Source: a virus. From it: a stretch of DNA of 43,937 nucleotides. Location: positions 1 through 43,937 of IMG/VR virus record IMGVR_UViG_3300028569_002402; one strand, 5' to 3'. Each line of letters begins with the position of its first letter. Position 1 is the stretch's first letter. Under the pieces are notes generated by a model. That model was given only the letters and a program-made list of their open reading frames with translations, searched no databases and was not told the DNA's origin. This document shows, piece by piece, positions 1,077 through 22,967 of the stretch. The translations under genes were made by a program, and so were the position numbers.

Positions 1077-2720
<1,644 letters not shown>

Positions 2721-2725
2721 GATTA

Positions 2726-3016
2726 TTAATTTAAAATTGCTAAAATATCTGTTTCTTTTGTAATATAATATTCCTCTCCCTCAACAACAAGTCTTTGACT
2801 TCCCATTTTAGGTATTAATACCTTGCTTCCTATTTTTAATGCACTCTTTACCTCTGTATCTGAGTTATAATTATAGGTTGGACTTGTAGCAACAACTTCA
2901 CCAATTTCTGGCTTTTCTTTACCTAGATCAGGGATAATAATATTACCTGATAGTTGTTCTTCTTCTTCGATTGGTTTTAAAATTGTAAAACCGTTAAGTG
3001 GTGTTATTTTAGACAT
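2726..3016 (-). CDS. groES: GroES co-chaperonin (Hsp10)
   Basis: This 96-residue protein matches the usual length of GroES. It opens with ITPLNGFTILKPIEEEE, the typical first strand, followed by a mobile-loop region (LSGNIIIPDLGKEKPEIGEVVA) and the closing strands GSKVLIPKMGSQRL and EEYYITKETDILAIL. GroES caps the GroEL ring, and the mobile-loop hydrophobic triplet that contacts GroEL is seen as III. It is encoded immediately upstream of groEL, as in bacteria. T4 instead uses a GroES-like cap (gp31) with host GroEL, so carrying both genes is a more self-sufficient arrangement. Confidence 0.95.
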   Translation of the reverse strand: MSKITPLNGFTILKPIEEEEQLSGNIIIPDLGKEKPEIGEVVATSPTYNYNSDTEVKSALKIGSKVLIPKMGSQRLVVEGEEYYITKETDILAILN

Positions 3017-3019
3017 AAT

Positions 3020-3220
3020 TTAATTTATTTGTTCTCCTTCTATTATTTCTGCTTCTTGTATTTCCTCTAAAAAATATAGTTCTTCATTTTTTCTTAACAC
3101 GGTATTTGCATTTAAATGTTCTTTCCATGCTTCTATATTAGGTTTATACTTTTCCTTAATTTTTCTTTTAACAATATATAATATACCTTGAAATTCTATT
3201 ATCTCTGTAGTGATTAACAT
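3020..3220 (-). CDS. hypothetical 66-residue protein upstream of groES
   Basis: I do not recognise this small charged protein. It has a beta-strand-rich first half (ITTEIIEFQGILYIVKRKI) and a strongly acidic end (EEIQEAEIIEGEQIN). It ends 3 bases before groES and appears to be the first gene of the groES-groEL transcription unit. No signal peptide or membrane segment is visible. Its tight placement suggests co-expression with the chaperonin. A function is not inferred. Confidence 0.65.
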   Translation of the reverse strand: MLITTEIIEFQGILYIVKRKIKEKYKPNIEAWKEHLNANTVLRKNEELYFLEEIQEAEIIEGEQIN

Positions 3221-3281
3221 ATCATAATGTAACTATAATTTTTAATATATACAACTTTTTTTTAATAGAATTTAAAGATAA

Positions 3282-3293
3282 TGACAGGTCTCC
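3282..3293. repeat. 12-bp inverted repeat, copy downstream of hsp20
   Basis: The sequence is tgacaggtctcc, the exact reverse complement of 4029-4040. It begins 13 bases after the hsp20 stop codon, so in an hsp20 transcript it would lie in the 3' untranslated part. Confidence 0.85.
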
Positions 3294-3305
3294 GGATTTC
3301 AAAAC

Positions 3306-3971
3306 TTATTTTATTTCGATTTTCTTTGGTTTATTTTCTTTAGCGTATGGAATCTCCAACGTTAATAAACCTCTATCTAAACCAGCCTCTAGTTTAGATA
3401 ATTCATATTTAGAAGATACCTTCCAAGCAATGTCAAAACCTGCTTTTTTAATTGAACGATGTAGATATCTATATTCATTTTTCTCTTTTGTTTTATCGTC
3501 TTCTGTTTTACGATAAGCAACTCTAAGTGTTTCTGAGTCTACAATAATATCTATATCTGATTTTTCTAATCCAACAGCAGCAATTTCAATTCTTAAACCA
3601 TTGTCAGTCTCTTGAATATCAACGGGGTGTTGAACTGCTTTTTCTGAAATTGGTCTGTAATGGGCATTTTTATCGAAGAAAGATTTCCATAATAAATCCA
3701 TCTCTTCATCAAAGTTCCAATAATCATTGTATGTTTGTGGGATTATTTGATGTGGTTGTTGCCAAATAGCTGTTGAACCATTTGTGAGAGAATTTCCTAG
3801 GAATGTATCTGTTACATACCCTGTTGTACCATTTGTTGTTGTTGTTAATGTTGAATAATTACTTGTTCCACTTGTTAGTGATAGTCCGCTTGATGTTAAG
3901 CTAGTTCCGGTCAAAATAGTACCAGCTAAGTCATCAAATACTACGAACACGTCTGTAGTTTTATTTTTCAT
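3306..3971 (-). CDS. Hsp20/alpha-crystallin small heat-shock protein with Ser/Thr/Gly-rich N-terminal extension
   Basis: The alpha-crystallin domain spans about residues 108-221. It begins HPVDIQETDNGLRIEIAAVG, carries GLLTLEIPYAK near the end (the G-x-L motif) and finishes with KKIEIK, an I-x-I tail used for oligomer assembly. Small heat-shock proteins hold unfolding proteins without ATP, and cyanophages and other large phages also encode them. The first 75 or so residues are unusual: a low-complexity Ser/Thr/Gly/Leu segment (TILTGTSLTSSGLSLTSG) that does not resemble a normal Hsp20 N-terminus. The gene stands apart from groES/groEL and is bracketed by a 12-bp inverted repeat. Confidence 0.92.
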   Translation of the reverse strand: MKNKTTDVFVVFDDLAGTILTGTSLTSSGLSLTSGTSNYSTLTTTTNGTTGYVTDTFLGNSLTNGSTAIWQQPHQIIPQTYNDYWNFDEEMDLLWKSFFDKNAHYRPISEKAVQHPVDIQETDNGLRIEIAAVGLEKSDIDIIVDSETLRVAYRKTEDDKTKEKNEYRYLHRSIKKAGFDIAWKVSSKYELSKLEAGLDRGLLTLEIPYAKENKPKKIEIK

Positions 3972-4028
3972 TTTTTTGTTGTTTATGCTCCCTAAGGTAG
4001 CGGTTAATAATAATTGTTATTTAATAAT

Positions 4029-4040
4029 GGAGACCTGTCA
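4029..4040. repeat. 12-bp inverted repeat, copy upstream of hsp20
   Basis: The sequence is ggagacctgtca, the exact reverse complement of 3282-3293. It lies 58 bases before the hsp20 start codon. If transcription begins above it, the 5' leader and 3' trailer of the mRNA could pair over 12 bp. Confidence 0.85.
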
Positions 4041-4100
4041 AGTACCTCTTATATAAATATATATTATTTTACAAAACCATTATTTTTTATGTAATTTATT

Positions 4101-4703
4101 TTAATATTTTATCATTTTAGACATTAAATCTTGAATATATTTTATTTTAATAATAATAAATTCAATTTCTTCTTCCGATAAAGTCATATCTTCAAAAACC
4201 CAAGATATGTTAACAACTCCGTCTTTTATATGATTACCTATTTTAAAGGTATAATTAGTGATTATACCATAAAATTTATTTAGTCTTATAATTTCTTGAT
4301 CTGGAAAATCTGGGCCTATCTTAAAGTATGATTGTTTACAATTATGTATGTCTATTAATAATTTACATATAGGACTAATGGGTATTTTTTGAAGATCTAG
4401 TATCTGACTCTTGGTTGTATAATCTACGCTCTCGTATGTCATAGATGAATAATTAAATGGTAATCCGTTAGTTGAAATATTACCATTATGATATTCAATT
4501 ATATTTACCCTGTTGGATCCGACATAAGCTCTTATTTCTATCAGAACTTCATTTATTTTAGCTCTAATATCGGTATTTTGAATAAATGAATATCCTTCTT
4601 TGTTTTTATTTAACTTTTTATTTATCCAGGATATTATATATGGAGTGATCGTAGCGACAGCGCCTCCTATTAACATTCCTAAACTAGTATACATGCTATC
4701 CAT
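4101..4703 (-). CDS. membrane-anchored protein, possible GAF-like domain
   Basis: This 200-residue protein has one hydrophobic segment near the N-terminus (about residues 7-26, LGMLIGGAVATITPYIISW) followed by a Lys/Asn-rich stop-transfer stretch. The rest should therefore be cytoplasmic. Residues about 50-190 contain NIIEYHNGN, LPFNYSSMTYE and a closing ISWVFED strand, an arrangement resembling small GAF-type sensor domains annotated in other phages. The domain call is by eye only. It follows the sliding clamp gene by 29 bases. Ligand and role are unknown. Confidence 0.65.
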   Translation of the reverse strand: MDSMYTSLGMLIGGAVATITPYIISWINKKLNKNKEGYSFIQNTDIRAKINEVLIEIRAYVGSNRVNIIEYHNGNISTNGLPFNYSSMTYESVDYTTKSQILDLQKIPISPICKLLIDIHNCKQSYFKIGPDFPDQEIIRLNKFYGIITNYTFKIGNHIKDGVVNISWVFEDMTLSEEEIEFIIIKIKYIQDLMSKMIKY

Positions 4704-4732: not shown

Positions 4733-5473
4733 CTATTCTGTAGATTGCCTTACTAAAAAATATTGAGACTTAATATTATTATTATGAAAATTTATTTTCA
4801 TTAAACCTTCTCTGAATATTTTAATATTAGCTGATGTAAATTCTTTATTGGCCTGGAATATTAATTTTAGTATGTCTCCGTTAAATGGAATTGGTTCTAT
4901 GTCATTTTCATAGCTTGATATTATATTAAATTTAATTTTATTAGCATGTGAAGAATTTTCTCCAATAGTAAATTCAACGCATTTTTGATTATCATTATTT
5001 AATTTAGTTTCTATTAAAACTCTATTAATAGTTTTATCTAATGCATTTTTTGCTTTAATAAATCTATTAACAAAGTCTGAATCTAAATTAATATTAATAT
5101 CATATGATTCTGGTTCATCTATAGCTGGTATATTTTCAAACAGATTTAAATCAGCTAAGTGATAAAACGTTTCATATTGATTATCCGATATTTGCATTTT
5201 AATTGAATTACCCTTTAAATCCCTTTCTATACTTAATGAACAGTATTCATTTGTAATATTCATTAATGATAGCAATTGACTTGTGGAGAACACGCCAAAT
5301 TTAGTCTCTCCATCTTCTATCTCTGTATTAAACTCAATCTTACCTAAGCAGTCTTTTGTATTAGTATAAAAATTTACTAAGTATCCATTATCTGTTTGAT
5401 TCCAGATTGCAGATTCACATTGACCGTCTAAATAGTATTTTTTAATAAACGATGTTATTTCAGTTGTTATCAT
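4733..5473 (-). CDS. DNA polymerase sliding clamp (T4 gp45-like)
   Basis: This is a 246-residue protein, close to T4 gp45 (228). The segment FGVFSTSQLLSLMNIT matches the conserved part of gp45-type clamps, and the two-domain beta/alpha pattern typical of a trimeric clamp can be followed through the sequence. The clamp encircles DNA and tethers the replicative polymerase, and in T4 it also works in late transcription. It lies 8 bases downstream of the family B polymerase gene, which supports the assignment. The clamp loader genes (gp44/gp62) are not in the window. Confidence 0.82.
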   Translation of the reverse strand: MITTEITSFIKKYYLDGQCESAIWNQTDNGYLVNFYTNTKDCLGKIEFNTEIEDGETKFGVFSTSQLLSLMNITNEYCSLSIERDLKGNSIKMQISDNQYETFYHLADLNLFENIPAIDEPESYDININLDSDFVNRFIKAKNALDKTINRVLIETKLNNDNQKCVEFTIGENSSHANKIKFNIISSYENDIEPIPFNGDILKLIFQANKEFTSANIKIFREGLMKINFHNNNIKSQYFLVRQSTE

Positions 5474-22124: not shown

Positions 22125-22967
22125 TTAATTTTCAGATAATACTTTACTAACGTGAGCAATTACTTTATCCCAAGAAGCTATACCATCTTCATCTTCATAA
22201 ATTACAGGGTCAGGACGACCTAAATTAATAAAAGCCTCTACTCGTTCAACACTTGAAGCAGATTTATAATCTGAATTACCTGATGGATATGGTTTATAAC
22301 TAGTATTAGTTCTTCTATATACTTCATTAAAATCTAAACCTAACTCTTCACACAATTTTTCTCCATCTTTCAAAATATCAAGTTTTACACCTTTAAGATA
22401 TGGAGTAAAGTATTGTACCTTTTCAGATCCCCAATTTCCTATCCTAAAAGCATAATCATCAGCATCACGGAATTCTTGTCTACAATCAGGATATACTCCA
22501 AAGTCTCCAGCATGTATACCTAAAGCTATATCACAATTTTCTCCGGTTCTTTGAGCAACTGATAATGCTACTGCTTGAGTAATAGAAGCGAATATTTTGT
22601 TACGATTAGGGACTACAGTTGCTTTTTGATTATCTTCGGCATAGTGTCCTTCTGGTATATCTGCACCTCTTGTTACTAATGCTGAATCTAATAGATCGGA
22701 TAATCCATTTAATTGGATTTGACGATAATTGATTTTTGAGTATGGAATATCTTCAGCTAATATACCATATTCAAAATCCAAGTCATAAGCACAATTTATA
22801 TAATCTACTAATAATTGAGCACGTTCAAGTTCTACTTTGTGTTTTTGACCGTAATCAAATGAAATTGCCGTTACTGTATCGTATTCCTTTAAACAGCGTA
22901 ATAGTAATGTACTTGAATCCATCCCGCCGCTGGCACTAACAACTACATGTCGTTTTATTTTTTTCAT
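22125..22967 (-). CDS. queC: 7-cyano-7-deazaguanine (preQ0) synthase
   Basis: This 280-residue enzyme turns CDG to preQ0 with ATP and ammonia. The PP-loop SGGMDSS is at 13-19, followed by AISFDYGQKHKVELERA, which is diagnostic of QueC. VPNRNKIFASITQAVAL and ALGIHAGDFGVYPDCR are also typical. The C-terminal region where QueC normally binds zinc through CG-C-C reads TSYKPYPSGNSDYKSASSVE with no cysteine at all. Otherwise the protein is full length and looks active. It is the first modification enzyme of the run, placed between two HNH genes. Confidence 0.94.
   Translation of the reverse strand: MKKIKRHVVVSASGGMDSSTLLLRCLKEYDTVTAISFDYGQKHKVELERAQLLVDYINCAYDLDFEYGILAEDIPYSKINYRQIQLNGLSDLLDSALVTRGADIPEGHYAEDNQKATVVPNRNKIFASITQAVALSVAQRTGENCDIALGIHAGDFGVYPDCRQEFRDADDYAFRIGNWGSEKVQYFTPYLKGVKLDILKDGEKLCEELGLDFNEVYRRTNTSYKPYPSGNSDYKSASSVERVEAFINLGRPDPVIYEDEDGIASWDKVIAHVSKVLSEN

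Follow-up and report, generated by a model that had tools for sequence, protein, structure and literature searches.

We found that the untranslated leader and trailer of the hsp20 message remain able to pair with each other in a large group of uncultured phages, and that the message is probably a closed loop. We came upon this pairing in a viral record of 43,937 bases (hereafter the window, the whole stretch of DNA that was analyzed), in which nearly all long ORFs of the ORF listing are on the minus strand. The features that concern us are the following:

4733-5473, minus strand: ORF of 240 aa upstream of hsp20 (also at L003:2322-3041)
4052-4061, minus strand: late-promoter-like motif TATATTTATA, just upstream of the 5' arm
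4029-4049, minus strand: 5' arm, made of the core TGACAGGTCTCC at 4029-4040, two unpaired bases and an outer part at 4043-4049
3987-4001, minus strand: leader hairpin GCT-A-CC-TTAG-GG-AGC, with a bulged A, 2 pairs and a tetraloop; 15 bases separate it from the start codon
3306-3971, minus strand: hsp20, 221 aa (HSP20 PF00011, E 4.4e-9), alpha-crystallin domain at residues 118-221
3274-3293, minus strand: 3' arm, made of the core GGAGACCTGTCA at 3282-3293, one unpaired base and an outer part at 3274-3280
3020-3220, minus strand: small ORF of 66 aa, 3' of the trailer; 14 of 58 rows of the collection described below carry a relative of it downstream of hsp20
2726-3016, minus strand: groES (Cpn10, PF00166), next in the chaperone group
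1077-2720, minus strand: groEL (Cpn60, PF00118)

The 240-aa ORF had no Pfam match within the cut-off, its copy in the window had no PHROG match, and its candidate assignment as a sliding clamp found no support from either resource. Elsewhere in the window, at 22125-22967 (minus strand), there is a QueC-like queuosine biosynthesis gene (PHROG 1550).

An exact-match search located TGACAGGTCTCC at 3282-3293 (plus strand) and 4029-4040 (minus strand), with no further exact copies in the window or its record; read on the coding (minus) strand, the leader thus carries TGACAGGTCTCC and the trailer GGAGACCTGTCA. The perfect 12-bp inverted repeat around hsp20 described in the first-pass annotation is therefore real and exact, and it is the core of a longer conserved pairing, the helix running outward to about 19 pairs (3274-3293 with 4029-4049). 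The arm does follow soon after the stop codon, as was also claimed, at a distance of 12 bases and not 13. The claim of a high GC content compared with the surroundings did not hold, as the enclosed gene has 0.285-0.345 G+C (200-base windows, 3300 to 3899) versus 0.31 in the nearby groEL part; the arm itself has 7/12 G+C. A terminator scan found no intrinsic-terminator-like site at the 3' arm.

A single 12-base repeat is not beyond chance, and the decisive evidence is its conservation with compensating change in relatives. Watson-Crick runs of at least 12 between leader and trailer were found in three of 341 control ORFs, one of them an hsp20 gene missed by the filter (L074) and the other two made only or nearly only of A+T. 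Over all genes, the length of the longest Watson-Crick run peaks at 6-7 in the 341 control ORFs versus 11-13 in 56 hsp20 genes. Minimum free energy (MFE) folds of A+T-rich controls contained leader-trailer stacks of at least 8 in 16 of 60 cases, so that a fold alone is weak proof; it is the covariation described below, together with the 341 control ORFs (including that one hsp20 gene), that rules out a chance origin of the pairing. As a separate observation, the relatives L003 and L006 share an ORF of 124 aa (L003:7545, L006:10389) whose leader and trailer match over 13-14 nt of A+T-rich sequence, probably promoter-like repeats.

Relatives were collected from IMG/VR, the queries being the protein and its alignments, the pattern of the leader hairpin, and three more Hsp20 proteins (80 of 91 relatives were taken in one of the scans). 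The result is a set of 118 phage hsp20 loci with distinct flanks, near-identical rows still among them, divided into 58 first rows and 60 further rows. The first set went from 61 loci to 56 after removal of identical flanks and to 58 with the addition of L064 and L074, while the further set came from 83 loci after discarding 20 redundant ones, L201 for its insufficient length, and L136 and L167, whose contigs were already represented by L068 and L071. Loci cut by contig ends (L050, L051, L123/L078) were excluded, L216 and L217 are repeats of L121 and L122, and alignment A7 was built without L068, L071 and L121, whose rows had been shifted by MAFFT in A4 and A6. The proteins are of an A-type (with an N-terminal extension, like that of the window), a B-type, a C-type and a small L121 group. 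The extension of the A-type (3770-3971, minus strand, in the window) changes fast and has many G, T and S residues, its first residues being similar. Two peptide patterns, which covered the A-type only, retrieved no relatives of the A-type alignment from bacterial and archaeal genomes. Among named phages, no relative of protein P0001 was found at 1e-5, and only distant relatives of the B- and C-type proteins were found.

With at least 8 of 11 core pairs as the threshold, the helix between leader and trailer appears in the predicted whole-message MFE fold of 117 of the 118 loci, i.e., in 58/58 first rows and 59/60 further rows, with mean pair probabilities of 0.98 and 0.93, values inflated by the choice of core windows for good pairing and by the restriction of the 60 further rows to 25-80 nt before the start. 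The single row lacking it, L220, is a relative with 30% identity. In the 58 first rows the total length of the helix has a median of 19.5 bp (range 13-24); bulges and internal loops occur at differing positions, and almost no particular sequence is required. The distance from the end of the 5' arm core to the start codon is 30-79 nt in these rows (the distances of 79 for the arm and 38 for the hairpin are too large in L064, which was assigned a later start codon) and 33-72 nt in the further 60, within the searched range of 25-80. The start region is not inside the helix, and we found no cover of the Shine-Dalgarno or start region of the icaR or hok type. We also read 12 hsp20 genes of named phages, eight of them cyanophages, and saw no helix at the equivalent position, with the proviso that some of their annotated starts may be wrong. 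Their best runs (8-13 nt including G·U) are in scattered places, the longest, in P-RSM4, pairing sequence ahead of the start codon with a stem located 61 nt past the stop. Considering L220 and these 12 genes, Hsp20 does not generally need the helix, which is a trait of only part of phage hsp20 genes.

Compensating change in relatives, the check proposed in the first-pass annotation for its suggestion of a pairing between the 5' and 3' UTRs, gave a positive outcome, both in the covariation and in the 117/118 folds. The letters of the arms turn over nearly completely (GACAGGTC, GGTAGGTC, GATAGGTC, GGAAGGTC, GGATGGGTA, CTTGAGAGC, GACCCCAGAGC, GCTAGGGCACA, CTCTAGGGCGA and others), each accompanied by its own complement. 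Already in the closest kin, L003-L006, the arm is GATAGGTCTCC with GGAGACCTATC versus GACAGG with CCTGTC in the window, despite crystallin parts that are up to 94% identical, and more distant arms have GGTAGG, GGAAGG, GGATGGGTA, CTTGAGAGC, GACCCCAGAGC, GCTAGGGCACA or TTAAGGGCACG, with the matching complement. Single linkage by shared 6-mers divided the 58 distinct arm pairs into 6 unlinked groups, two of which consist of one arm pair each, one of these coming from L090, plain kin of the main group.

When 16 distinct arm pairs in one register were compared with shuffled versions, 93.1% of the cells were paired versus 86.8%, and the covariation score was 0.305 versus 0.174, values that none of 500 shuffles reached in either case; sliding the partner along lowered the paired cells from 93% to 24-45%. 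For the same 16 pairs, neither the pairs changed on both sides (reached by 89/500 shuffles) nor the further pair types (386/500) were above shuffles. The run lengths of the real arm pairs sum to 619, whereas re-dealing the 3' arms among the 5' arms gave sums with a mean of 302 and a maximum of 359 (2000 shuffles, with windows selected for pairing). The interior cells of the 58 unique arm pairs comprise 503 Watson-Crick pairs, 16 G·U, 2 A·C and 1 other. Such an excess of G·U over A·C is not expected of DNA sites and points to RNA of the coding strand. In 10 of 39 distinct pair strings, chiefly those of B-type rows, the inner end of the core has a C·A mismatch, and the helix is one pair shorter there. 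An RNA pairing between leader and trailer almost certainly exists, and the comparison among relatives shows it, together with the leader hairpin described below, to be kept by selection, acting on the coding-strand RNA. Both arms would then lie on one transcript.

The preference for G·U also bears on the suggestion, made in the first-pass annotation, that the repeats are the ends of a 759-bp mobile cassette, that is, that the arms act at the DNA level as sites of recombination for an hsp20 unit able to invert or move. Within 2.5 kb, the 240-aa ORF is found upstream in 48 of the 58 first rows (10 lack it) and groES/groEL downstream in 52 (6 lack it), and every neighbor found is on the hsp20 strand, none being inverted. 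The arm letters change while this neighborhood stays. The inverted repeats are perfect, as a cassette would have them, and similar flanks enclose A-type hsp20 in one locus and B-type hsp20 in another (L026/L087, L022/L097, L015/L105, L003/L117), a weak echo of the cassette idea. In the pair L026 and L087, identity is 96% upstream, 87% in the leader, 50% in the ORF, 78% in the trailer and 82% downstream, so the flanks outlast the gene, with A-type or B-type hsp20 inside nearly the same leader and trailer. On this evidence, we consider a DNA cassette extremely improbable.

Between the 5' arm and the start codon there is a small hairpin, in which a lower stem of three to five pairs is followed by a bulged A, an upper stem of two pairs and a four-base loop. 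It is present in 109 of the 118 rows (the search demanded the bulged A, standard pairs and a score of at least 13; L106, L116, L121, L122, L195, L212, L218, L219 and L220 score lower), and in 98 of the 109 its end is 14-16 nt away from the start codon. The loop is UUAG in 91 rows, CUAG in 5, UAAA, UAAG and UAAU in 3 each, UUCG in 2, and UCAG and AGAA in 1 each, and the upper pairs are CC/GG (57), GC/GC (32) or UC/GA (20). A score of at least 13 was reached by 54 of 58 real leaders versus 10 of 1160 shuffled ones. Hairpin covariation was 0.855 versus 0.158 in shuffles for the 22 kinds with at least four lower pairs (29 kinds when trimmed to three lower pairs), a figure inflated by the selection of rows for pairing, and 0.618 versus 0.152 for 13 kinds; in the 22 kinds, changes on both sides (387/500) and further pair types (95/500) were not above shuffles. 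A search of IMG/VR for the exact pattern gave 33 matches, 32 of which precede an hsp20 gene as judged by eye, the exception (L062) being a G+C-rich chance match. The leader hairpin is thus nearly exclusive to hsp20. The operator hairpin of the MS2 coat protein consists of a lower stem, a bulged A, two pairs and a tetraloop. The phage leader hairpin shares this architecture but not the letters, and a protein that binds it is only putative.

Since the gene is a heat-shock gene, an RNA thermometer has to be weighed, in which the pairing would open upon warming and free hsp20 for translation. The temperature sensitivity attributed to the pairing in the first-pass annotation is at odds with the model, where the panhandle retains a probability of at least 0.97 up to 75 °C in three modelled messages, and the start region that a thermometer would cover is outside the helix. 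The hairpin of the window does soften in the model, the probability of its lower stem going from 0.96 at 20 °C to 0.87 at 37 °C and 0.65 at 55 °C, and it is this small hairpin, not the helix, that is the sole thermometer candidate. ROSE RNA thermometers (Rfam RF02523, ROSE_3) are likewise structured hsp20 leaders, but an Rfam search of 3150-4150 gave no match to the element of the window up to E 5, nor did eight relatives match ROSE up to E 2; in 11 whole source sequences, only tRNAs were found at the gathering level. Weak ROSE_3 matches below the gathering score are present in the hsp20 leaders of three of the 12 named phages: Melnitz-1 (L133:414-476, E 0.001), Atu_ph07 (L135:397-461, 0.035) and S-SM2 (L126:451-512, 0.22). 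By eye, 10 of these 12 leaders have U(C/U)GC and then GGAG before the start codon. We regard the thermometer as very improbable for the phages studied here.

As to the ends of the message, the motif ATATTTAT, which we take to resemble T4 late promoters, precedes the 5' arm core by no more than 45 nt in 45/58 first rows and by no more than 50 nt in 36/57 C-type rows; among control ORFs, 6/60 have it at a distance of up to 100 nt from the start. In the window as a whole, the frequency of the late-promoter-like motif is not above chance. We take ATATTTAT to be a putative promoter. A contrary sign is a sigma-70-like match (TTGACA-17-AACAAT, 4041-4013, minus strand) that overlaps the 5' arm of the window and would start transcription below it; the scan that gave it counted 21 sites versus 20.7 in shuffled sequence. 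On the other side of the gene, the distance from the 3' arm core to the start of the next ORF is 1-36 nt in 52 of the 58 first rows, and ATATTTAT never lies in between, so the 3' arm may be located inside a longer message.

This short distance to the next ORF counts in favor of the main rival explanation, in which the helix is a stem processed by RNase III for the release of the hsp20 cistron. RNase III processing stems are double-stranded and about 20 bp long, a length that the phage helix matches, and its varied bulges and loops and scant sequence requirement are in keeping with such a stem. However, the promoter-like motif is located right at the 5' arm (the 45/58 and 36/57 rows above), leaving little leader for RNase III to remove, and the sequence would look the same under protection as under cutting. 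The icaR pairing between 5' and 3' UTRs, as presented in sections of PMC3868564, is cut by RNase III. Altogether, we consider processing rather unlikely. The short distance to the next gene also brings in a translational coupling switch, in which the helix would close the start region of the next gene until ribosomes finishing hsp20 open it. In the 58 first rows, 6-34 nt (median 13) separate the stop codon from the 3' arm core, and the next start is 1-6 nt past the core in three of them (L118-L120) and 10-17 nt in 15. However, it is 19-36 nt past the core in 34 and further in 6, outside the helix, and TATATT, possibly the promoter of the next gene, occurs 10-24 nt past the core in 55 of 57 C-type loci (L137-L215). 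Coupling thus appears quite improbable.

The reading that we favor on balance is a cis-acting closing helix that would protect and insulate the hsp20 message. The late-promoter-like motif would start transcription at the 5' arm or slightly upstream of it, and once the 3' arm is made leader and trailer would pair over about 19 bp, closing the whole cistron into a loop. The helix would hide the 5' end and block 3' exonucleases and other nucleases, protection being thereby limited to complete hsp20 messages, and it would insulate hsp20 from the downstream groES/groEL part. Translation would continue, since the start region lies outside the helix, and the hairpin just upstream of the ribosome landing place probably tunes it, perhaps as a protein-binding operator. 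A free start region, a helix stable to 75 °C in the three modelled messages and the conservation of its length but not of its letters all fit a double-stranded RNA that closes the message. The protective role, taken by itself, is quite possible but falls short of probable. A bolder version, with a widespread phage RNA family in which the end-to-end helix and the bulged-A hairpin form a closed-loop translation device, with ribosomes handed back to the hsp20 start and a phage protein (perhaps Hsp20) on the hairpin setting the output, seems plainly unlikely. The element is well supported, and its function is what we infer.

Closed-loop messages are a rarely documented form of gene control, and one pairing maintained through more than 100 diverged loci with near-complete change of letters is comparative evidence that such loops are worth keeping. 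Having a single gene with swappable, repairable arms of many sequences, this system provides a clean test bed for the effect of message closing in bacteria. We found no earlier report of the phage hsp20 pairing in the openly licensed literature, which leaves outside most subscription journals and all bioRxiv preprints, and the methylophage paper, in the sections dealing with the gene, names hsp20 only as a core gene (PMC9004378). The pairings between the 5' and 3' UTRs of one message that are named in the relevant sections of PMC7821165 and PMC3868564 are single cases: hok, RNAIII, icaR and hbs. By prediction, the phage element has the leader-trailer base pairing of the hbs/icaR class in 117 of 118 loci.

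In icaR of Staphylococcus aureus, leader and trailer of the same message also form double-stranded RNA, but there, according to the sections of PMC3868564 on this gene, a short motif pairs with the Shine-Dalgarno region, blocks translation and leads to a cut by RNase III, whereas the start region of the phage message is free. The hok mRNA of plasmid R1, as cited in the same sections, resembles the phage message in that its 3' end folds back on the 5' part, but the full-length folded-back message is translationally silent, while the phage start region is outside the helix. The nearest precedent is the hbs mRNA of Bacillus subtilis, in which a 14-nt helix between the 5' and 3' UTRs protects the message from RNase Y (Braun et al. 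2017, as summarized in PMC7821165), a short leader-trailer helix within one message like that of the phages. The passages on hbs in PMC7821165 describe a single host gene with a 3' UTR that is not conserved in close relatives, a trait shared by several of the functional 3' UTRs described there. In contrast, the phage helix persists in over a hundred diverged loci while its letters change, and a leader hairpin comes with it.
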